From Umbilicaria muhlenbergii (taxonomy: Eukaryota; Ascomycota; Lecanoromycetes; Umbilicariales; Umbilicariaceae), in assembly GCA_000611775.1 (NCBI GenBank), contig KK106981.1:1669507-1733506 (forward strand): a stretch of DNA of 64,000 nt. Direction: 5' to 3'. Below, piece after piece: positions 11,683 through 45,331 of this stretch. A program made the translations under genes and the position numbers. Positions within the stretch are counted from its first letter, which is position 1, and every line of letters begins with the position of its first letter. The notes beneath the pieces are model-generated. The model did not search any database and was not told the DNA's origin. It worked only from the letters and a program-made list of their open reading frames with translations.

Positions 11683-11850
11683 GACCTTATTACTTGACGC
11701 ACCGATGTTTCAACGGAGAGCCCAAAATCTTTTAGAGAACGACGGGGTTTACCGAAGGGAATTTATGGCTCTCAGCCCTACAGCTCGAGTCCCCACCTGG
11801 ATGAAGATGCCCCTCCCTCCAACTCACGAAGCCGGCTGCACAGCTTCAGA
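11683..11850. promoter_or_regulatory. Shared divergent promoter of FAF1 and HIS6
   Basis: Only 168 bp separate the two start codons, so both promoters and 5' leaders must lie here. I could not identify a specific factor site with confidence. Confidence 0.6.
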
Positions 11851-12738
11851 ATGACACGATTCAGGCCTTGTATTGACCTGCATGCAGGCCAGGTGAAGCA
11901 AATCGTCGGTGGGACATTGGGTGGTCAAATTGCCGAGTTCAAGACCAATTATGTATCTGATCTCTCAGCAAGACACTACGCCAAGCTCTACAAGGACCAC
12001 AACCTCACCGGGGCCCATGTGATCATGCTTGGGCCGGGCAATGAGGAGGCTGCCAGAGAAGCGCTAGAAGAGTGGCCAGGATCCCTCCAGGTTGGAGGCG
12101 GCATCAACGAAAACAACGCAGCACAGTGGATCAAATGGGGCGCAGAGAAGGTAATTATTGTCCAGTCCAGATAGGAATCTTTGGGGAGCTTACACTGTCC
12201 AGTAGGTTATACTAACATCCTACCTGTTCCCCGACGCAAAATTCTCAATGGACCGCCTGAAAGCGGTGCTGGCCGCCCTCGACGGCGATAAGAGAAAACT
12301 CGTCATTGATCTGAGCTGTCGAAGGCAAGGGGAGAGATGGGTAGTAGCCATGAACAAATGGAAAACCTTGACTGATATGGAGGTCAATGCTGGTAGGCAT
12401 CTTGAAGCCATGAGTGTTGGGCATTGTACTGATACGTTTATTTAGCAAGCATCAAACTCCTGGAGCCATATTGTTCTGAATTCCTGGTTCATGCGGCGGA
12501 TGTCGAGGGCTTGCAATCGGGCATCGACGAAGACTTGGTTGAAAGTCTTGCACATTGGTGCACTATTCCAGTGACATACGCCGGAGGAGGCAGGAACCTT
12601 GGTGACCTTGAAAAGGTTCAAACTTTGAGCCAAGGCCGAGTCGATTTGACGATAGGAAGTGCTCTCGATATATTTGGTGGAGCCGCAGTTCGATTGGAAG
12701 ACTGCGTGAGGTGGAATAAGGAACATGGCATTGAATGA
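11851..12738 (+). CDS. HIS6: HIS6, ProFAR (BBM-II) isomerase of histidine biosynthesis
   Basis: 1-(5-phosphoribosyl)-5-[(5-phosphoribosylamino)methylideneamino]imidazole-4-carboxamide isomerase, the fourth step of histidine synthesis, cytosolic (beta/alpha)8 barrel. Three exons (11851-12150, 12206-12392, 12446-12738) join in phase to 259 residues; yeast His6 has 261. Visible family motifs are [18 protein letters not shown] at the N-terminus, [23 protein letters not shown], and [13 protein letters not shown] with [11 protein letters not shown] at the phosphate-binding end. The introns are 55 and 53 nt. The gene diverges from FAF1. Confidence 0.96.
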
Positions 12739-13591
12739 AGTAAGTAGCTGTACAATTGGCTCTTGAGGTCTCTTCAGAGGCTTCAGTCGAGTATGCTGTA
12801 TTACTTGTGGACATTTGACGATTATTACCTCATAGAAGTGATTACTTTTATGAGGCGATTGAAGTGTATATACAGTCTTCGTGATTAAAAAAGACAAGTG
12901 TTGGTAGACACCGTACAGAAGCGTGCACAGCTGTCGAACCCTCCGGTAAGTCATCTTCATGATCAAGCACCAATAGAAAAGGTCTCGATCTATTCAGACA
13001 TCAGAAAAACCAAAAAGAGAATATGTGCTCGACAACGGCAGGAATCAAACCGGCGCTTCCGAAGAAAACAGCTCTGGAACCCTCTTACAGAAAATAGCAG
13101 GCTGTCGTGAAGCATTTGAGGCGGTATGAATCCCATGATGAGAGCTTGAAACCCACGCGGTGTGCAGAGGCTACAATAGTCGCCCGTTTAATATAGCATC
13201 GGTTAAAGAGTGTAGTTGAGACATATTGAGAACCTGTGACTGGGTTATAAGAAGAGAAGCCTGAGGGCGAAGAAGTTACGCAAAATTGGCGAGATCACCA
13301 ATAGAACAGGCATACCAGTAAAAATAAATTCTCAACGACGATAAGCCCAATTTCCTTGAGACTTCAGAGGTAGATAGTTCATATACTTCTTTAAACTATC
13401 TGCAAATTCTGAGACTTCTCAATTCCATCTGACCATGCTACACCGCTTGCACGTAGAAATACTCATCTTGGTGTGGGGGGCTTTTTTTCGCATCGCTGTG
13501 AGAGGGTCAAATTCAAACGCTGAGGACTGCGGGACAAACTATTACGGAAAGGAATATATATTTAATATCTCAGCCGTTTTTCTGACAATCA
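12739..13591. other. AT-rich intergenic region with a partial tRNA
   Basis: No protein gene is supported. The segment holds the HIS6 3' UTR, the partial tRNA-Ser on the minus strand (13030-13106), and an 8-bp inverted repeat with arms AGATAGTT/AACTATCT near 13373-13402 that could form a hairpin. The composition is AT-richer than the surroundings. Confidence 0.5.
13030..13106 (-). tRNA. Partial tRNA-Ser(GCT)-like gene (anticodon arm to 3' end)
   Basis: On the minus strand this reads an anticodon stem ACAGC paired with GCTGT, loop CTGCTA with anticodon GCT, a short 37/38 insertion, a variable arm TTTC-TTCG-GAAG plus C, a T-arm GCCGG-TTTGATT-CCTGC (one stem mismatch and TTTGATT in place of TTCGATT), an acceptor strand CGTTGTC and discriminator G, followed by runs of T. 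A matching 5' acceptor (GACAACG) and D-arm are not seen directly upstream. It is either a broken tRNA copy or a gene whose 5' part is displaced by a further insertion, as in the neighbouring tRNA at 13592. The arm sequences closely parallel that gene. Confidence 0.5.
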
Positions 13592-13811
13592 GACATCTTG
13601 GCGCAAGTCTTCCCCCTTGGAAAATTGAAAAAATGAAAATTCAAATGAGCCCTCATACTAATTTATAGTAGGGAGTGGTTAACGCGATAGCCTGCTATCC
13701 ACGCTGTGGAAGTCAGCTATTTCCTTCGGGAGGTGAGTTTTCACAGCACCAAGACTTAAGAGGACATCTTCTAATAGTCTAGAAGCGTGTGTTCGAATCA
13801 CACAGATGTCG
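13592..13811 (+). tRNA. tRNA-Ser(GCT) with three apparent introns
   Basis: Acceptor 5' strand GACATCT (13592-13598) pairs perfectly with AGATGTC (13804-13810), and the discriminator is G, as in serine tRNAs. TG (8-9) and D-stem start GC (13601-13602) precede insertion 1 (13603-13671, 69 nt, GCAAGT...TACTAAT...TAG). The D-arm then resumes with GGAGTGGTTAA and CGC. The anticodon stem ATAGC/GCTAT holds loop C-T-GCT-A and the ordinary 17-nt tRNA intron (13698-13714). The variable arm TTCC-TTCG-GGAG is followed by insertion 3 (13733-13785, GTGAGT...CTAAT...AAG), C, T-arm GTGTG-TTCGAAT-CACAC, and a T6 terminator. Removing the three insertions (139 nt) leaves exactly 81 nt, a standard type II serine tRNA. 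Insertions 1 and 3 look spliceosomal, and insertion 1 splits the A box. It could instead be a pseudogene. Confidence 0.7.
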
Positions 13812-13816
13812 AGGGA

Positions 13817-13822
13817 TTTTTT
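13817..13822 (+). terminator. T6 RNA polymerase III terminator
   Basis: Six consecutive T residues begin five bases after the discriminator base of the tRNA-Ser(GCT). That is the usual position and form of a Pol III terminator. Confidence 0.75.
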
Positions 13823-14390
13823 GACCCTTTTTCAGTCTGTGATGGGATAGTTCTATTCACTGAGGTTGCGTGGGAAACTTTTTGGTTTCTTCCTTAACCC
13901 AGATTTGGTCAATCATACACAAAACTAGCAGCTAGCGGCACTCAAGTTTACTCCGAGTAATGTTTTCTCACCATGCTAAGGGGCGCCTCAGTTTGATTCA
14001 ATGTACACTTGATTGGTTCTCAAATGACTCGTTCCATTGCTTCATAGAGAATATCTGAACATCGACATGAAGACCCTCTGTCATGTGTGAAGTTTGTTTG
14101 AAGAATCTATCAACTGACATAACCAATGAGCTCTCAGACGGTTATAAAATAACGGGACCGAAATCCCACGCGCTAACGGCAACAGCCGCAATCGAGAAGC
14201 CTCACTCCTCAGCCCACGTCGACACAGTAATCAGCAGCCTTCTCCAAGTATCCATCTTATCGCTGCAACACCACTCCAGACATATCTCCCAACACCACCA
14301 CCCCGTCTCAGGCCGCACCTGTAAACCCCCGTCCACCCATCGATCCCTCAACCCTCACTCACAGCCTTATCGGCCCCGTCCGTTGCCACA
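13823..14390. other. Intergenic region between tRNA and V-ATPase subunit f gene
   Basis: No gene seen. The last roughly 150 bases are C/A-rich, like the 5' leader of a fungal mRNA. A short open frame at 14083-14394 has no family features. Confidence 0.5.
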
Positions 14391-15248: not shown

Positions 15249-16994
15249 TCAGTCATCATCACTGTCCTCGACATCTTCCTTGGGCTCCAAAGTCTTGCTC
15301 ATATACGGACCATCAAGCCAGTAACCCAGCTTTCCATAGTAAGACCTTACGCCAACGCCGGAGATCACGCTGATCTTGCGGCTACCATGCTCATCCCTTG
15401 CAATCCTCTCTGCCTCCTCCATCAACAACGTCCCATACCCTTGATGCTGAAATTTTCTCGGATCCCTGCCATGCACCGGCACAGCGGAGCCGTAGACATG
15501 TAGTTCCCGCACCAGACTCGTCGGCTGCGGTTTGAGTTCTGGCCGGAAGGTGTGCGTGTCGCTGCACTTTCGGAGCCGTAGCAGCGCGATCAGAATATCC
15601 TGTTTAGGGTCTTCGTAGGCGAGGAAGGTCTCCCAACCACCATTAGCCGCGTAGTCTCGCCGGACGAGCTCGACTTGTGAGGGTCGGATTTTATTTTTGA
15701 CTTCGTTGATGCCGACTTCGCGGGTTCGGACGTCGCGGCAGGTGGTGCCAAAGTCTTTCATTCGGCTTAGGGCTAATTCTCGTAGATTACCATTTTCCAC
15801 GCCCGAAGTCACCAGCGGCATCGGTATATCACGCTGCACTCGGTAAATGCGCGTCCATGGAGGTACAAGGGCTAAGATCCGTGCCACAAGATCTATCAGT
15901 GCGTTCGGCGTGTAATTCTTATATCTTCCTGTCCGCCATAATTCATATAGACCGGTGCCACGGATAACAAGTGTTGGGTAGATTTTAAGGCCATCAGTGC
16001 GGAAAGCTGGGTTCTCAAAATACTCCCGGAACTGATCCAGATCTCGCTCCATCCCTACGTTTGGTAGGTCGGGCATCATGTGGCTGACAACCTTGAAACC
16101 TGCATCTTTTGCTAATCTGAACGTCTCCGCTACTGCAGCAACGGTGTGCCCTCGATTAGTATCTCGCGCGACATCTTCGTACAGAGATTGAACCCCTATC
16201 TCCAATCGAGTACAGCCGTACCGCAGCATGCTGCTCAAATGGGTATCCAAGCAGTAGTCAGGCCGCGTTTCGATAGTGATACCAACGCACTTGATGTTGC
16301 TCATCTCCCCCGCTTCCACCGCCTCGTCGACATTTTCACCCTGATATCCGCTCAGAGCATTGTGTAGCTGTGATATGAAGCCGTCTCGATAATCCTCCGG
16401 TAATGACATGAAGGTGCCTCCCATAATGATATATTCCACTTTATCCACGCTATGTCCCAGAGACTTGATCTGATCCACCCGCCCTCGAGCCTGCTCATAG
16501 GGGTCGTAGCGGGCTCTAATAGCTCTCATCGATGTCGGCTCATATCCAGTATATGACTGTGTAGAATATTCAAAGTCCGAATCAGGCCCACCGGGACAGT
16601 AGACACAGATGTTGCCTGTATACGCAATATGGGGGCACCGATGCGGCTTGCACATGACGGCCACAACAGCTATACCGGATGATGTTCGAATTGGCTTAGC
16701 AATAAGCTTTGGTAGAATGTATTTCTTGTAATGCTCTGGTACAGCTGCTATGATAGCCGTTAGTGGAGGCTGGTTGCTTAGTCTGTGCTTCTTTGCCATT
16801 TGCCCTCTGAGGCTGTTCAGATTGATGTCCCTCTTTGGTTTTGAGTCATCTTGCTGCGCTTCATGATCTTGAATTAAAGCACTGGCGATATCTGAGCAAG
16901 CACGCATGAATCGTTCGTTCTCCGGTGGGAGCTTCAGATTCTTGGGCGGCCTATTCTTGCCCGTCGGCGTCAGGGTCATCGTTTCGGTAGCCAT
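15249..16994 (-). CDS. ELP3: ELP3, catalytic subunit of Elongator
   Basis: Radical-SAM/acetyltransferase subunit of Elongator, which adds the carboxymethyl group to wobble uridine 34 of tRNAs. Single exon of 581 residues, near the usual 550-560. The iron-sulfur cysteines appear as C120, C130 and C133 in [14 protein letters not shown], followed by the radical-SAM barrel (about 110-390; [36 protein letters not shown]). The C-terminal GNAT domain covers about 420-565 ([34 protein letters not shown]). The start [10 protein letters not shown] is the first ATG of the frame. It is divergent from LSC1 across 231 bp. Near its stop the coding strand switches from C-rich to G-rich. Confidence 0.98.
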
Positions 16995-17225
16995 GATTAT
17001 TGCCTGACAATTGCCGTCCAGTTATGCTGGCCTTGACAAGACAACATGCCCTTGAGGCTCCTCAGGCTCCTCGAGGCCTTGTATGCTTAAATTTCACTAG
17101 CTCGGCTCGCTAGCTCGGTATCGTATCAGCTCCGACCTCTTCACAAGCTTCGCAGATACACTGATTGGACGTCCAATCTTTCCCATCCTCTTGACTGTCT
17201 TCTGGCTTCCTCTCTTGTAGCAGCA
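16995..17225. promoter_or_regulatory. Shared divergent promoter of ELP3 and LSC1
   Basis: 231 bp between two start codons. It contains a duplicated CTCCTCAGGCTCCTCGAGGC-like stretch near 17054-17074 but no factor site I can name with confidence. Confidence 0.5.
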
Positions 17226-20489: not shown

Positions 20490-21417
20490 TGTGTCCACTT
20501 TTCAGATCCTCTTCAAGCCATTTACGCCAATTATGCGGAGCTCCGTGGTAGCGTCTTCCCTAAATCCAACGAATTGCGTGTGCTTGACTCTGTAGACTGA
20601 ACCAGCATATGCCAGCATCGAGGCAACTGATGCACTGGAGAATTCATTCGATTCACCATTGGAACATTCTCTCTAAGCCTCAGACTCAACAGCCCTAAAT
20701 GGCCAATTGGTATGTCTCACCGGGTCTTTCTCTCACGCTACGGGGTTCTGACTTTAACAGGACGCGCGAGCGCCTATTATCCCTAACTCGGACTTTTGCT
20801 AAGTTTTCTAGCCACTATTAGGTCCGCAGAGCCAGAAGGACCGTACATATTTGCTGCGAATTTCAAGACATCGTTGTGGGAGTTGGGTCGGCTTTCTAGC
20901 GGGAGATCTTGTTTTATTGTCTCTCGCAAGCGTATGGGACTTTATCTTCCTTACAATTGATCCTGCTCTTACCGGGCTACCTTCGCACTTCTATTCCCCA
21001 CGTTTCTTGGGACCCTGAATTCGGCTCACTGCCAATTGACATTTCTGTCACCCTCCAGTACCGGTCGCTCACTTTCGTTTTACCGAACCTATCTCTTCAA
21101 AGTCGGTGCAAGAACGCCTCCACAAACATTCATTGCGGTCACGCGTTTGCTTCAGAAGAGGCTTTAAATAGAGCACACAGACATTCAGAGAAGATCGATC
21201 AGGGTAGCCGAGTCCTAAGAATGCTTTTCGATTCACCTCTTCTCTAGCTTTCTTGTTATGCGAGAGGCAGGCTTTGCTCTATGCTTCTTTCGACGGAGCC
21301 ACAACAACTATAATGGAAACTCACTTCAAGCAAACCGCTTGACAGAACAGAACTTGGTACGATTAAGATTTGGGATGCAGTGATGCTAGGGTGCTTGTGG
21401 TGCTAACCTCTTTACAG
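20490..21417. other. Intergenic region upstream of BTB-like gene
   Basis: No firm gene. An ATG at 20698 is followed by a well-formed intron (GTATGT donor at 20711, CTGAC branch, ACAG acceptor before 20761), but the joined frame stops after 23 codons. This is best explained as a leader intron or a short uORF of the next gene. The 112-codon frame at 20909-21247 has no family features. Confidence 0.4.
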
Positions 21418-22205
21418 CTCAAAAGGACGGCCCCTATTCAGAGCAAAAGGACTCCACAAAGTGCAACTCCGCCATCGCCGCGGATGCTCCACGCTGGTTC
21501 CAACTCTCCATTCCCCTCCAGTCGGCCTCGATCTTCTCCGAAGCTCTCATCCACCTCGTCAGCTGCTGGCCCTACTGCCCCTGGCCTACTCCAGCCACGA
21601 TGATTACCCGCGACATGACCGACCTCATCAAGCGAAAAGCCAAGCAGCTCGCTGGCTTGCGCGGAGAAGTCGACCGCGAGCTGCTCACTAACAGCATAAG
21701 CACCGAGGGCGGCGACCCCGTCACTTTCGCCACTTCCCCCGAATCGTGGCTCGTCGTGCAGGTGTTCCGAGACTGGCTGGCTGCCCAGCTGCACGATCAA
21801 CGCAAATCGGGCGGGGCGCACCACGGCACGGTGTATGGGCTCATGCGGACGGGTGGGGAGGCGTATTTGCCGCCCGAGGAGGTGTCGGAGGCGCTGCAGG
21901 GGTTGAGGGGGAGGGGCGTGGGGGGTTGGGAGGAGCTGGCGGAAGATCTGGGTGCGTTGAAGGGGTTTGCGATGGAGGCTGTGGGGGTGTTGGTGGGGAA
22001 TGGTCTTATGCTTGACGTGGAGGGGACGGGGGGAGTATTTGACTTGTGTGGATGTGGGGGGGAAGAAGTTTCCGTGGGTGGGTTGAGGGGGGTGTGGTAC
22101 TATCATATTTCCTCTTTTGGTGATGAAGCGTCCAGATACGTCCGCAGTGGTCTTTTCAGGAAAGCCCCAGTCACATGTACGAACGAAAATTCGAAGTTCT
22201 TATGA
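21418..22205 (+). CDS. Uncharacterised protein resembling the C-terminal half of fungal BTB-type proteins (partial model)
   Basis: A good acceptor (CTAAC branch, CTTTACAG ending 21417) opens a frame with a protein-like sequence: PRWFQLSIPLQSASIFSEALIHLVSCWPYCPW, MTDLIKRKAKQLAGLRGEVDRELL, SWLVVQVFRDWLAAQL. It reminds me of the region after the BTB/POZ domain in uncharacterised Pezizomycotina proteins, but I cannot name it. The upstream exons are not resolved: the frame needs one carried-over base and no ATG-bearing exon fits cleanly. The ATG at 21600 lies inside the conserved stretch, so it is unlikely to be the start. The last about 50 codons (22060-22205) look less protein-like and may be intron or UTR. 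Composition turns G-rich after about 21815. Confidence 0.45.
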
Positions 22206-22342
22206 GTTTGCTGCACTTCGTCGGCGTACCGGACTGTTCAAGTCTCCTGAATTCATCAAAGGAGATGGGTATACCCGTATCCCCCCGCCTCACCCCCAGC
22301 GCCGCCCAAACCCCCCAAACCCCAAACTCCAAAACGCCATCC

Positions 22343-23131
22343 TCACCCCCTCTCCCCTTTCGCGTCTCGTGGACCTTCCTTCAACCCCACCCTCCCCTCC
22401 CCCATCAGCCTCTCCCACCTCGCCCTGATATCGTCCCCGTCTCTCCCCCGCCCCAGCCGCCGCGCGCACTCGTCCCACTCTCGTTGGGAAAGCCGAAGTT
22501 TCGACAGTATGAGCGCGACCAGGGCGCGGTCGGAGGAGGGGGACCGTTCGCCGGTGTGGGCGGTTGAGCGGGTGATTGGTAAGGGCGTGGACGGGGGTGG
22601 CGGCGAGGATGGCGCTTCGGGCGTTGTGGTGGGTGGTGGGGTGGATAGGGATTCGAAATCGGAGGGGTGGAGGCCGAGTGGAAGGACGGGGGGTAGGAGG
22701 CGCGGGCGTTTCGGGGTGCTGGGTTGGGCTGTGGTCGCTTGGGTGGAGGGCGGGCTGCCGTCGTCGTCGTCGTCGTCTCGGCGCCGCCGCTTCTTCGGGC
22801 TTCGAGATGGGGGAGGGAGGTTTGCGGGTTTGGCGCGGTGCGGTTTGTGGATTGTGGTGAGGGGGCTTTGGAGGCGGTGTTTGACGCCACGCGGGGATGG
22901 GGAGGGCGGTGGGGATGTGGAGCTGGGCGCGCTGAGGATGAGCTGGAGCGTCTGGCAGGTGGTGGAGATGCCGGTGGTGATGGGGGAGGGAGGCGCGGAG
23001 GAGTCGGAGGCGGGTGGAGTTGTGGGGAGGTGGGTGCGTGGATGGAGAGGGCGAGCGTCGCAGGGGAGGGCGGATGGGAGGAGCATTTTGTGATGGTGAG
23101 CGTCGAACGGAAGGGCTGATGGAAGGGGCAT
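22343..23131 (-). CDS. Hypothetical proline-rich protein with a Myb/SANT-like C-terminus
   Basis: Single open frame of 262 residues from the preferred ATG at 23131; an upstream in-frame ATG at 23290 would give 315. I prefer 23131 because the sequence before it is CA-rich, like a fungal 5' leader. The first 190 residues are Pro/Ser/Thr-rich with a basic-acidic run (KKRRRRDDDDDDG). The C-terminal about 55 residues (SSDRALVALILSKLRLSQREWDECARRLGRGRDGDDIRARWERLMGEG) have the spacing of a Myb/SANT helix-turn-helix, so a nuclear DNA- or chromatin-binding role is possible (inference). The N-terminus shows a short internal duplication (MPLPSALPFDA / MLLPSALPCDA). The coding strand is strongly C-rich, then G-rich in the last 150 nt. 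Several long antisense frames here are shadows. Confidence 0.6.
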   Translation of the reverse strand: MPLPSALPFDAHHHKMLLPSALPCDARPLHPRTHLPTTPPASDSSAPPSPITTGISTTCQTLQLILSAPSSTSPPPSPSPRGVKHRLQSPLTTIHKPHRAKPANLPPPSRSPKKRRRRDDDDDDGSPPSTQATTAQPSTPKRPRLLPPVLPLGLHPSDFESLSTPPPTTTPEAPSSPPPPSTPLPITRSTAHTGERSPSSDRALVALILSKLRLSQREWDECARRLGRGRDGDDIRARWERLMGEGRVGLKEGPRDAKGERG

Positions 23132-25170
23132 TTCAATGGTGGTGATGGATGTGCTCGAGTGAGCTGGTTCTGCGGAGTGTTTGTTTGTTGCAGGGTTTTT
23201 GGTGGCAGATTTTGCGTAGATTGCGCCGGAGTCGAGAGTGGGCGCAATATGGGGGCTATCGAGCTCAAAAGCGCGTAGATTGCATCGCAACGGCGTGGCG
23301 ATCCTGAATCAGTGATTTCGCGGCCTTTACGGCGTGGTTGTGGTGGTTGTTGTGGTGGTGAGGATGGGATTGGGAGCGGTGAAGGGTTTGCGACTGGAGT
23401 GTGATGAGCCAGGAACAAATGCGGCCGGGTGGGGGCGTGCAAGCGATTTCAGCACGCTGTTTGGCTTCCCACGACGGCTAAGGCACTAACCGCAGCCAGT
23501 CATGAACAATGCCGGCTTCCAAGTTCCAGTCGCCGCCGCGCCGGCCTGTAAGGAACACCAGGGCCGGGCCAGCTGACGGGCTGAAACGGACACAGCCTGC
23601 GGTGCTTTCCCTGTTCCTGGTGTTCCATTAGGCCAGGGCAGTGGTGTTCCCCGATCTCTGCAGGGACGGGGCTAAAGTGCATGTGGCCTGATGACCTGGG
23701 CCCTAGTGGGGAGAATATGGGCGCAGTTGGGAGAGAGTGCGAAGGTGGCCGCAAGACTTCCAGCTCTGAAGCAATCATGCAAGGTGGCAACCCGAGCATA
23801 GTAGAGCCCATCCGTAGCGCAAATGTCTCAATCTGCGAGCGCCGTTTCGATTGTGGAAACCAATCCATCATTGGAGAAGTCTTTGGTAGCTACAATTAAA
23901 GAATGGCTTTCTTGTCATACCAACTATGTCGGTAGAGCAATGAGCGCGTTCACCGACGGCTCGGTGATATCTGCTATACTCACTGCCTGCCTGGTCGTTC
24001 AATGGCATGGACAGCTCCTGCTCTGCTGCCGTCAGGGCTACCGCACCGGGACGCTGCTCTTCTCCATGAAGTGGGCTAGTCTTCAAGAAGCCTCTATGCG
24101 CTTGGACTGGCTAAGGATGTCATCTCCGCCTCTTGCGGAAGACAATGGGAGATTATGGTCGATGGCTATACCTTAGCTATGATCGTAGAGTAGGACTGGG
24201 AGGCTTTCTAGGCGCGTCGTTGTGACGCGAGGCGTGAGCTGTTCGCGACAACACTATTTTCAAACAGGTATGACGGCTGCTTCAATATACGCTCCATCCC
24301 TCGATCCTCCTCCTCACTTGAGGATGACTACACTCTATCCGTTCCGTTTGACTTCACATTATACCAGAGCTCCTCGCATTTTGTTGTGCATGATGTACAT
24401 AACAAGCCCATTTTATGTGGAGCATTTCCACCTTGCTTGACATTCCAGTTGCCCTTTTCCTTCGCCTTGCACGTTCTTGCTCCCTGCCCTTGCGACGATA
24501 TCTATGTTTCTGCATCCAATAATTAAAACTGTTGTATTAGAGTCATATGCGGTTCTACCTTCAAGTTCCCTGGCCAGATTAGCGACGTTGCTGCAAGGCG
24601 TTGGAGTAGCCTCATAAGGCCTCACTTGGATCCGATTGAATATGAAGAGCTTGTTCCTGATCATTGCACGCCTGCTACATCTCCCTCGGTGATCCACCAT
24701 TGTGGGACTCGCCGGGGTCCTTTTCGATGCCGCAAGGGGCATGGTCATTGTTTCGCTTAAAACATTCTTTGGAGCCTTCCGTTTGCATTCCTCTCCCCTT
24801 AATAAGCGTCCCTCAATCTCTTGTGCGACATCGTTCCGTACTGCCTCCACTCGGACGCTGTTTGCGTCGCTGCTCTGGTCGTCTTCACTTATCTCAACTA
24901 TCGTGGCTTGCCAAGTCAAGGGATTTCGGAAGCCACATCCCCCGTCAAGCAGCGGATGTTCCTATGGCTGTTGCAATATACCCTTGTCTTATGCTATTTG
25001 CCTTTAGTAGACTACAATGTTGTCGATTAGTGAGGCCCACTCGGCCTTGACCGTAGATATTCATCGATCTTTATCGTGGAATGGAAGAAAAGTAACAACT
25101 ATAAGATGAATGTGATATCTCGTCCTATGATGTTGCGTGGAGTTCGTCAACTGCGACGTTGTTATACACC
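23132..25170. other. Gene-poor region between Myb-like and DUF1996 genes
   Basis: About 2 kb without a convincing gene. A 117-codon ATG frame lies at 23823-24176 plus. Several overlapping frames lie at 24413-25050 on both strands, one with a hydrophobic segment (24821-25030). None has family motifs, and the longest minus-strand frame lacks an ATG start. Confidence 0.45.
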
Positions 25171-42900: not shown

Positions 42901-45331
42901 ACTGTCTGTGGATCGTTCGACTTCATCGGTCTTGATTTTTCGTCCGATGAAATGAGAATAGAGCTCCGTTTGCGAGATCAGGAAGTTGAGCTTGCGCTTC
43001 TGCCTATTTGCTTCGCGATCCGCCTCAGCCTTCTTCGCGTTCTCAAGCTCCTGCTTCTCAGCCACTCTGCGTAGATCGCGCTCTTCTCTCTCGTTTCTCT
43101 TCCAGAACGACATCATTTCTCGCATACTCCTCTTCGCTCTGGCCTGAACATCTTTCATACTCTTATTTGTACGTAGCTGCCATCGTCGTGCTTCTTTGGC
43201 TGCAAGCTGAGCTGTCTTCCTCAAGTTCGATTGTTTGGTGGCAAGCGAAGTCTCCTTGATCCTGTAAACCTTGGGCACGTCCTTACGCGCGATATCTTTC
43301 CATATCTGGTCGTAAATCTGAGTGTAGCCCTTTGATGCATAATTTGTGACGATAGGTAACGGTGAAGCTTCCTTGAGTTGCTTGCTTTCTTTGGTCTCCC
43401 TCATTAATGTCTCACGTCTACTCTCCTCTTTGGGTGCGATGAAAACTAACTCGTCTCTCTCCATCGCGGCATAAGCGGCCTCGGCGGCGTCTTTCTCAGC
43501 CTGTTTCTTCTCTTTTGTCTTTTTTGGTCTGATGTTCGAGCCTCTTCCAGCTTTCCTCTTTGGCGGCTCAGGGGAAGCGTGCGGTGCTGTCGCGAATGTA
43601 CTCATGGTGCCACCTTCAAGATTTGGTGCCATTGGGGTAACTTCTCGTATCTCATCAGGTAGATCCCCACGTTCCAATATGCGTTTTGTCGTCTTCGCCT
43701 TCTTTTCCGCTTTCTGAGCCTCCCTGAGGAACTTTTCGCGTTCCGCCTGATCAGCGGCCAGTTGAGCTTTCTCGATGGCTTCGGCTTGCTTCTGCGTTTC
43801 CTGTTGGACGGTTTTCTCGCGCCGGCGTTTCCGTTGCATATCCTTCTTGCGCTCTTTCTCATCCTGAACCTCCTTTCGCTGTACTTCCGCAAGAGCCGCT
43901 GCTTCGTGAACTTTCCTGAAACGGTCCTTGCCATCTTGTGCGAAAATGCCAAGTTGGGCAGAATACTTGCCTACGGTGATTACCCTTCGGCGCTAAAGGG
44001 ATGTTGATCAGTATTGGTAGGGACGGACTCTACAAGATTTAACTCACCTTTCGTTTGCTGGATTCGATGTCCTTGATATCAAGTAGCCGCTTTCGACTGA
44101 ATTGTGCATATTTTTGCTTCGCTGTTTCCCAACCAGGCGCGTCGAAGTCACTAAGCTCCATCGCATCGATTTCAGCCATGGCCTTCTGGATCCTCTCATT
44201 TTCTTTGTCCGACATTGTCCGTTTAGGCTCACTGGTCGAGCTGTGGCTGGGGCGAGGCGGCTGACCCACTTCATTGACTTGTTCCTTTACGAAAGGCTCG
44301 CGAGTAGGTGACGGAAGGGCTTTGACAGGCGGTTTGCGCTGAGCCATTGGGGTCGATTGTATCGTCGACACTGGACGTTCTCCGTTGGGTAGTTTCGATG
44401 ACCTATTGAAGCGCTTTGTTGGAGGCCCTGGCTGTGGGGTTGTGACTGGTAGATCGTTGGTTGTGTTGGATAGAATGCTAGAGAAGGACATTGGATCTGT
44501 CGTTCTTGTAGGCCTATGCTCCATGATGCCACTCGGCTGAACTAGTTGTCGCGTATCCTCTCTACGCGATTCTTGCGACGTTTGGCTGTCTATTGTCCCG
44601 TTCATGGTCACAGAGTATCCTGAACTACCGCGCCGAAACACCGGTTGCTCTGGAGAGTTCTGTATTGGAGATTGTGAGACGGAATTGTGTCGACTGGAGG
44701 GATGTGCATGTGAAGCTGCAAATGTAGGCGATTGCTGAGAGAAGCGTGGGGCAACCGGCGAGTGATGCGCGCTTCGAGGTGGTCTTGGCTCCCCAGAGCT
44801 TTCAGTGTAGAAACTCGCGTCTCGGTTCTGCAACACGTTCAGCGAAGATCTATTCAACAATAGGATGACACTTGTATAGCTCTTGCAAGCGTCTATTGTA
44901 CATACCTGGCGTGGTGAACGTGTCGAGGAGTGTGAATGGCCCCAGGCCGTAGTCCCTTCACGATGTTCTGATGTAGGATCGTAGTATGTCGAGTTGCTTG
45001 ACTCCCTCGGAGGGTACATGGAGGTGTTGATGTGACTCAGACCATTCGAAGTTGGTGAGGGCGGCGGCCCATGACGCGGGCTCTGGTTTATCCCGGAAGA
45101 CAATGGGAGCGCTGATGGTGTTGATGTGGCAGGACGTGACGAATACTGTGTGCCGTATGCCAACTGGTGATGTGATCGGCCTGTTGGCGAATACGGACTT
45201 AAGCGTGAATTCGGCGGAGAATTTGCGGTATATGTGGGAGGCGGCTGGGCGGCTGGGGCAGCCATATTATCTCGTCTCAGTCGGTCGTCGTCGTCCGTCG
45301 GAGACCGCTGCAACACCGGACTATGATACAT
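39922..45331 (-). CDS. INO80: INO80 chromatin-remodeling ATPase
   Basis: Catalytic subunit of the INO80 complex, which slides nucleosomes and acts in transcription, replication and repair. Four exons (45331-44906, 44827-44048, 43992-40167, 40106-39922) give 1738 residues, normal for filamentous fungi. The N-terminal about 380 residues are Pro/Ser-rich. The DBINO/HSA domain is at about 670-760 ([39 protein letters not shown]). The SNF2 ATPase has DEMGLGKT at about 899 and DEAQ at about 1016. The long INO80-specific insertion (about 1170-1430) precedes helicase C ([41 protein letters not shown], to about 1562). Start 45331 ([11 protein letters not shown]) is the first ATG; an internal ATG 22 codons later is possible. 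Intron 1 (78 nt, GTATGT...TTGCAG) is in frame and stop-free, so retention would add 26 residues. Confidence 0.96.

Follow-up and report, generated by a model that had tools for sequence, protein, structure and literature searches.

We report a tRNA-Ser(GCT) gene in DNA that, judged by the proteins it encodes, is nuclear and comes from a filamentous ascomycete. The gene is probably transcribed by Pol III and interrupted by three introns of two kinds, two of them spliceosomal and one a 37/38 intron, a reading to which we assign a probability of a little over 0.6. The gene lies in a 64-kb stretch of DNA that was analysed at its full length (hereafter the window). Making the tRNA would, on balance, require the spliceosome for the introns in the D-arm and the variable arm and then the tRNA endonuclease for the 37/38 intron, all on one Pol III transcript. 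A first-pass annotation of this DNA had described a tRNA gene invaded by spliceosomal introns; the tRNA and the splice signals of that description are real, and we infer both the splicing and the use of the tRNA. Spliceosomal inserts are the best explanation because the splice signals exceed chance and the tRNA-endonuclease motif (BHB) is incomplete at both junctions.

A serine tRNA in four exons

The acceptor strands GACATCT (13592-13598) and AGATGTC (13804-13810) pair at 7/7 positions across 205 bases, as the first-pass annotation had noted. Its further claim that removal of three inserts (coordinates in Table 1) leaves an 81-nt serine tRNA was confirmed by ARAGORN, which identifies the spliced sequence as tRNA-Ser(gct) with fully paired acceptor (7/7), D- (GCG/CGC, 3/3), anticodon (5/5) and T-stems (5/5). 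The variable arm is capped by UUCG, the discriminator is G, and the invariant bases U8, A14, G18, G19, A21, U33, A37 and U54-A58 were located by eye. After intron removal the locus has the cloverleaf, long variable arm, anticodon, discriminator G and invariant bases of a type II tRNA-Ser(GCT).

Table 1. Features of the interrupted tRNA-Ser(GCT) locus and of the genes and mRNA introns used for comparison
Feature	Position	Strand	Basis or sequence
HIS6-like gene	11698-12738	+	two short mRNA introns
HIS6 intron 1, 55 nt	12151-12205	+	GTAATT...GTAG; continuous joined frame, Pfam in outer exons
HIS6 intron 2, 53 nt	12393-12445	+	GTAGGC...TTTAG; continuous joined frame, Pfam in outer exons
A/T-only TATA-like block	13553-13568	+	the window's sole A/T run of at least 14
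tRNA exon 1: acceptor 5' strand, U8, G9, D-stem G10 C11	13592-13602	+	ARAGORN
D-arm insert, 69 nt, GC-AG spliceosomal intron candidate	13603-13671	+	GCAAGT ... TACTAAT TTATAG TAG
tRNA exon 2: D-loop GAGTGGTTAA, D-stem 3' CGC, G26, ATAGC (anticodon stem 5' strand), CTGCTA (anticodon GCT at 13694-13696)	13672-13697	+	ARAGORN
Canonical 37/38 tRNA intron, 17 nt	13698-13714	+	position, A-I pair
tRNA exon 3: A38, anticodon stem 3' GCTAT, variable arm TTCC-TTCG-GGAG	13715-13732	+	ARAGORN
Variable-arm insert, 53 nt, GT-AG spliceosomal intron candidate	13733-13785	+	GAG/GTGAGT ... TTCTAAT AGTCTAG AAG
tRNA exon 4: T-arm GTGTG-TTCGAAT-CACAC (B box), AGATGTC, discriminator G	13786-13811	+	ARAGORN, sub-threshold Rfam
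T6 Pol III terminator	13817-13822	+	preceded by a five-base trailer
ELP3	open frame 15249-17021	-	next gene downstream of the tRNA
INO80 intron, 55 nt	43993-44047		two long open frames joined

A comparison of the raw and spliced locus in a tRNA finder was proposed at the first pass: ARAGORN calls a serine tRNA only once the inserts are removed and makes no serine tRNA call on the raw locus. One permissive setting produced seven calls in the window, one of which is a tRNA-Ala(cgc) at 13462-13811 that includes an intron of 263 nt. With only the D-arm and variable-arm inserts taken out, the result depended on the variable-arm cut: 13733-13783 yielded tRNA-Ser(gct) and a 17-nt intron, and 13733-13785 a misreading as tRNA-Gly(gcc) with an intron of 4 nt. 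Rfam gave no gathering-level match anywhere in the window; its tRNA match on 13763-13811 scored 23.5 bits, below the cut-off of 29. Scanning both strands of the window for a perfect 7-bp acceptor and a paired T-arm inside a span of 320 nt gave a single case; 0/60 Markov-simulated 128-kb sequences have one. This simulation, together with the splice-signal counts in the window and in Markov sequences given below, rules out a chance match.

A probe for human tRNA-Ser(GCU) is given in PMC4132733; its tRNA-strand sequence is TGGCCGAGTGGTTAAGGCGATGGACTGCTAATCCA, and the stretch of the spliced locus compared with it is TGGCGGAGTGGTTAACGCGATAGCCTGCTAAGCTA. Set by eye against the human probe, which is one distant sequence and not a family alignment, the locus has pairs 12-23 (C-G to G-C), 29-41 and 31-39 changed on both sides and still paired. 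The 12-23 pair is possible in the unspliced RNA as well, because G12 is available from either side of the D-arm insert. The stem changes therefore speak for a tRNA that has been functional, not for splicing, and they may predate the inserts.

Exact tRNA patterns gave 0 matches in viral_contigs and genome_contigs, neither of which consists of fungal genomes. Two D-arm patterns matched 1 and 2 loci in viral_contigs, and these are unrelated, the gene identified there by ARAGORN being tRNA-His or tRNA-Gln. Within the window, no run of 14-16 bases from 13551-13850 recurs elsewhere on either strand, and one 13-mer does. Transposon-type insertion was rejected, as inspection by eye found no target-site duplication beyond one-base sliding.

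In the minimum-energy fold of the bare 81 nt the acceptor, variable arm and T-arm are kept and the D and anticodon stems are lost, so it is the tRNA pattern that supports the cloverleaf. The whole precursor is more stable than its shuffles (z -3.41, 0/200 as good). Its minimum-energy fold forms the acceptor, anticodon and T stems, with the 5' strand of the D-stem paired with insert sequence, and its centroid fold keeps the acceptor and T stems and loses the anticodon stem. Folded alone, the variable-arm insert is mildly more stable than its shuffles (z -1.67, 8/200 as good) and the D-arm insert has no extra structure (z 0.20, 112/200 as good).

Two further features of the precursor were noted. 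A 10-bp helix between UGAAAAUUCA (13634-13643, D-arm insert) and UGAGUUUUCA (13734-13743, variable-arm insert) appears in the minimum-energy fold; it is given no weight, since a hand estimate puts the chance expectation at about 0.2 such helices. The first eight bases of the tRNA, GACATCTT, are repeated at 13763-13770 inside the variable-arm insert, where they could pair with the 3' acceptor strand as a decoy; the forced fold (-61.7) is 4.3 kcal/mol weaker than the true one (-66.0), and the 8-mer occurs five times in the window, counting both strands.

Splice-site-like signals at the D-arm and variable-arm junctions

The D-arm insert lies at tRNA position 12/13 and slides by one base, G12 being supplied by either side. 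Of the boundaries drawn at the first pass, the D-arm one (13603-13671) stands as one of two equivalent registers, the other being 13604-13672; the GC start exists in the first only, in which the insert starts GCAAGT and ends TACTAATTTATAGTAG directly before G. The variable-arm insert starts GAG/GTGAGT (slashes mark junctions) and ends TTCTAATAGTCTAG/AAG/CG, and its 3' boundary is less fixed than had been proposed: ARAGORN reports tRNA-Ser(gct) whether the cut is 13733-13782 (50 nt, leaving 84 nt), 13733-13785 (leaving 81 nt) or 13732-13783 (leaving 82 nt). Of these products the 82-nt one pairs best in its variable-arm stem (UUCC/GGAA), at the price of insert ends that break the GT-AG rule.

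Both inserts have a consensus 5' splice site, a branch-point motif and a 3' AG at their exon junctions, and the 5' site of the variable-arm insert has the exon context AG/GTGAGT. How often such signals coincide was counted with a strict test that asked for 5' GTAAGT, GTGAGT or GCAAGT together with CTAAY 7-20 nt before AG, at the ends dictated by the tRNA, over two registers for the D-arm and five starts by seven ends for the variable arm. For the D-arm, 2/127,500 window positions pass, and both are the tRNA locus in its two registers; for the variable arm 10/127,500 pass, five of them at the tRNA locus and five at one other site. Looser signals (GYRNGN, CTRAY) gave 10 passes for the D-arm and 144 for the variable arm per 127,500 window positions, and Markov sequences with each insert's own composition gave 5 and 10 passes, respectively, per 1,500,000. 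Strict 5' sites followed by an intron-like 3' end (45-120 nt away, with CTRAY) number 16 distinct cases over both strands, two of which fall within the 220-bp tRNA locus. Because the strict-signal counts are so low elsewhere, the two inserts are intron-like beyond coincidence, and the splice-site-like ends pointed out at the first pass are real and well beyond chance on both the window and the Markov counts.

The inserts had also been said to match the mRNA introns of this genome in size. Three mRNA introns of this genome span 53-55 nt; at 50 or 53 nt the variable-arm insert agrees with them, whereas the D-arm insert, at 69 nt, exceeds each of them. The branch motif TACTGAT is found in 2/3 of these introns, 13 and 15 nt before AG. 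The HIS6 intron at 12151-12205 has no CTRAY branch motif, so this motif is not universal in the genome. The 5' splice sites of both HIS6 introns are further from GTRAGT than that of the variable-arm insert.

The 37/38 intron and the tRNA-endonuclease motif

Canonical fungal tRNA introns sit at 37/38, and the 17-nt insert is one of them: it begins one base after the anticodon and has a C32-G(-3) A-I pair. The D-arm and variable-arm inserts differ from it in lying outside 37/38 and in having splice-site-like ends. The 17-nt intron forms an outer helix of 4/4 pairs, which like the A-I pair suits a TSEN substrate, and 3/4 central pairs, all Watson-Crick. No full BHB, with a 4-bp central helix, was found at the other two junctions in two D-arm registers and seven variable-arm boundaries; the best choices reach 3/4 central pairs, G-U included. 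The test discriminates weakly, because the accepted 37/38 intron also has 3/4 central pairs. We posit that the positive splice signals outweigh the BHB test and that the spliceosome, as far as the sequence can tell, is the better candidate for the removal of both inserts and offers the best explanation for them. A search by hand for an inverse BHB between the two inserts found no helix.

Pol III signals and locus setting

The tRNA 5' end is preceded, at a distance of 39 to 24 nt, by the A/T-only block, the only A/T run of at least 14 in the 64-kb window. The T6 claimed as terminator is indeed present at 13817-13822; the + strand of the window has seven runs of at least six T, this one included. 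No T5 occurs inside the gene, where the longest T-run is a T4 in the variable-arm insert. The locus has a B box, a T-run terminator and a TATA-like upstream element, and the upstream A/T block with a T6 after five bases is, by its sequence, a Pol III layout. An uninterrupted A box was not found, as the D-arm insert splits it (TGGC / GGAGTGG).

The tRNA locus (13592-13811, + strand) lies between HIS6, which ends at 12738, and ELP3. Proteins encoded in the window are STE12-like, ELP3, an adaptor mu subunit, WSC, STH1/SNF2, INO80, Sad1/UNC, ORC2 and HIS6-like. A single open frame of at least 80 aa overlaps the locus (13378-13668), and it has no Pfam match. In Elongator, which modifies the wobble bases of tRNAs, ELP3 is the catalytic subunit; its place beside the tRNA locus is probably a coincidence. 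Elsewhere in the window, at 21390-23448, long open frames overlap on both strands in a region of GC 0.605 (over 22001-24000), and the two + strand frames tested there have no Pfam match.

Features that count against the main reading

Several details weigh against two spliceosomal introns in a functioning tRNA gene. The 5' site of the D-arm insert is of the GC subtype and has C at -1, both of which are weak, and the exon before it would comprise 11 nt plus the leader. Two AGs of the variable-arm insert obey the GT-AG rule, giving a tRNA of 81 or 84 nt and not the 82 nt of the best-paired arm. The split A box and the incomplete cloverleaf in the minimum-energy fold of the bare 81 nt count on this side as well. 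C12 is acetylated in serine and leucine tRNAs, and the locus has G12 instead. Between the A/T block and the tRNA there is a T5 (13577-13581), so transcription would have to start downstream of this run.

Proposed processing and alternative explanations

We propose that Pol III would start downstream of the TATA-like block and stop in the T6. The spliceosome would take out the GC-AG intron of the D-arm and the GT-AG intron of the variable arm, RNase P and RNase Z would trim the ends, and TSEN with a ligase would remove the 17-nt 37/38 intron last, leaving a mature tRNA that may decode AGC and AGT codons. The D-arm and variable-arm introns are placed first because TSEN reads the folded tRNA. A like order is supposed in the red alga Cyanidioschyzon merolae, where according to PMC9602550 the anticodon intron is removed after those of the D- and T-arms.

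The locus could instead be a dead or dying tRNA-Ser(GCT) copy, recently hit by two intron-like insertions and still undecayed, its task being done by intact copies elsewhere. A split A box would suit such a copy; every stem of the spliced form is nevertheless paired, the TATA-like block and T6 are retained, and the three stem pairs that differ on both sides from the human probe (PMC4132733) are still paired, a point tempered by the chance that these changes predate the inserts. We regard decay as rather unlikely. It is also conceivable that all three inserts are tRNA introns cut by the tRNA endonuclease, two of them ectopic, and that the splice-like ends are coincidental. Precedents can be named, since the C. 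merolae tRNA-Ile(UAU) has three introns, including 12/13 and 37/38 (PMC9602550), and in the nucleomorph of Guillardia theta many ectopic introns are described as having no defined BHB (PMC3978253); the accepted 37/38 intron of the present gene is itself imperfect, with 3/4 central pairs. Against this, neither the D-arm nor the variable-arm junction has a 4-bp BHB helix, both carry consensus splice signals far beyond chance, and the D-arm insert has no extra structure relative to shuffles (z 0.20), so that endonuclease cleavage at these sites seems improbable.

A Pol II precursor that is spliced like an mRNA, with the tRNA later excised from the spliced transcript, would account for the splice signals and tolerate a split A box. 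The TATA-like block and T6, however, stand at the distances of a Pol III tRNA gene, and the locus lies between HIS6 and ELP3 with its sole overlapping frame of at least 80 aa (13378-13668) belonging to no Pfam family; we hold this route to be very improbable. Two spliceosomal introns and one 37/38 intron in a Pol III tRNA gene thus remain our preferred reading.

Significance and comparison with known systems

Introns of tRNAs and of mRNAs are usually treated as separate worlds with separate enzymes. If the preferred reading is true, spliceosomal introns would here be seen in a tRNA gene for the first time, as far as is known or was found. The spliceosome would then be able to handle a tRNA precursor made by Pol III that offers it a first exon of 11 nt and a short leader, and the supply of one serine tRNA would be tied to spliceosome activity. 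Finders that allow introns in the anticodon loop only would miss such genes, as ARAGORN did here, and the locus would offer a concrete case for intron entry into structural RNA genes. Among the matches listed for the open-licence tRNA-intron literature, no title or abstract start mentions a tRNA gene with spliceosomal introns; because this negative covers open-licence papers, the novelty is provisional.

U6 genes with a spliceosomal intron also occur in fungi other than Schizosaccharomyces pombe. In S. pombe, U6 is a Pol III transcript that carries an mRNA-type intron (PMC10484740), and in lichen rRNA spliceosomal introns are reported, which are removed from Pol I transcripts in yeast too (PMC8527467). 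The first-pass annotation had held that a gene of this kind would need Pol II/Pol III cross-talk or a new processing route. The need for cross-talk is weaker than claimed, because on these two precedents spliceosomes already process Pol III U6 and Pol I rRNA transcripts.

Among interrupted tRNA genes, the tRNA-Ile(UAU) of C. merolae resembles the present one in having three introns, at 12/13, 37/38 and 53/54, of which the 12/13 and 37/38 sites are common to both (PMC9602550). The third insert lies in the T-arm in C. merolae and in the variable arm here. Disrupted algal tRNA genes are, moreover, described as BHB-mediated (PMC3978253), whereas the D-arm and variable-arm inserts of tRNA-Ser(GCT) have no complete BHB. 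The nuclear rDNA of lichen-forming ascomycetes is alike in having ectopic spliceosomal introns in a structural RNA that Pol II does not transcribe (PMC8527467), and differs in that the product is rRNA, made by Pol I, and not tRNA. The S. pombe U6 gene shares with the locus an mRNA-type intron in a short structural RNA gene transcribed by Pol III (PMC10484740). U6 is, however, a component of the spliceosome, and reverse splicing is the supposed source of its intron, whereas a tRNA is no such component and the tRNA locus combines two mRNA-type inserts with a TSEN intron.
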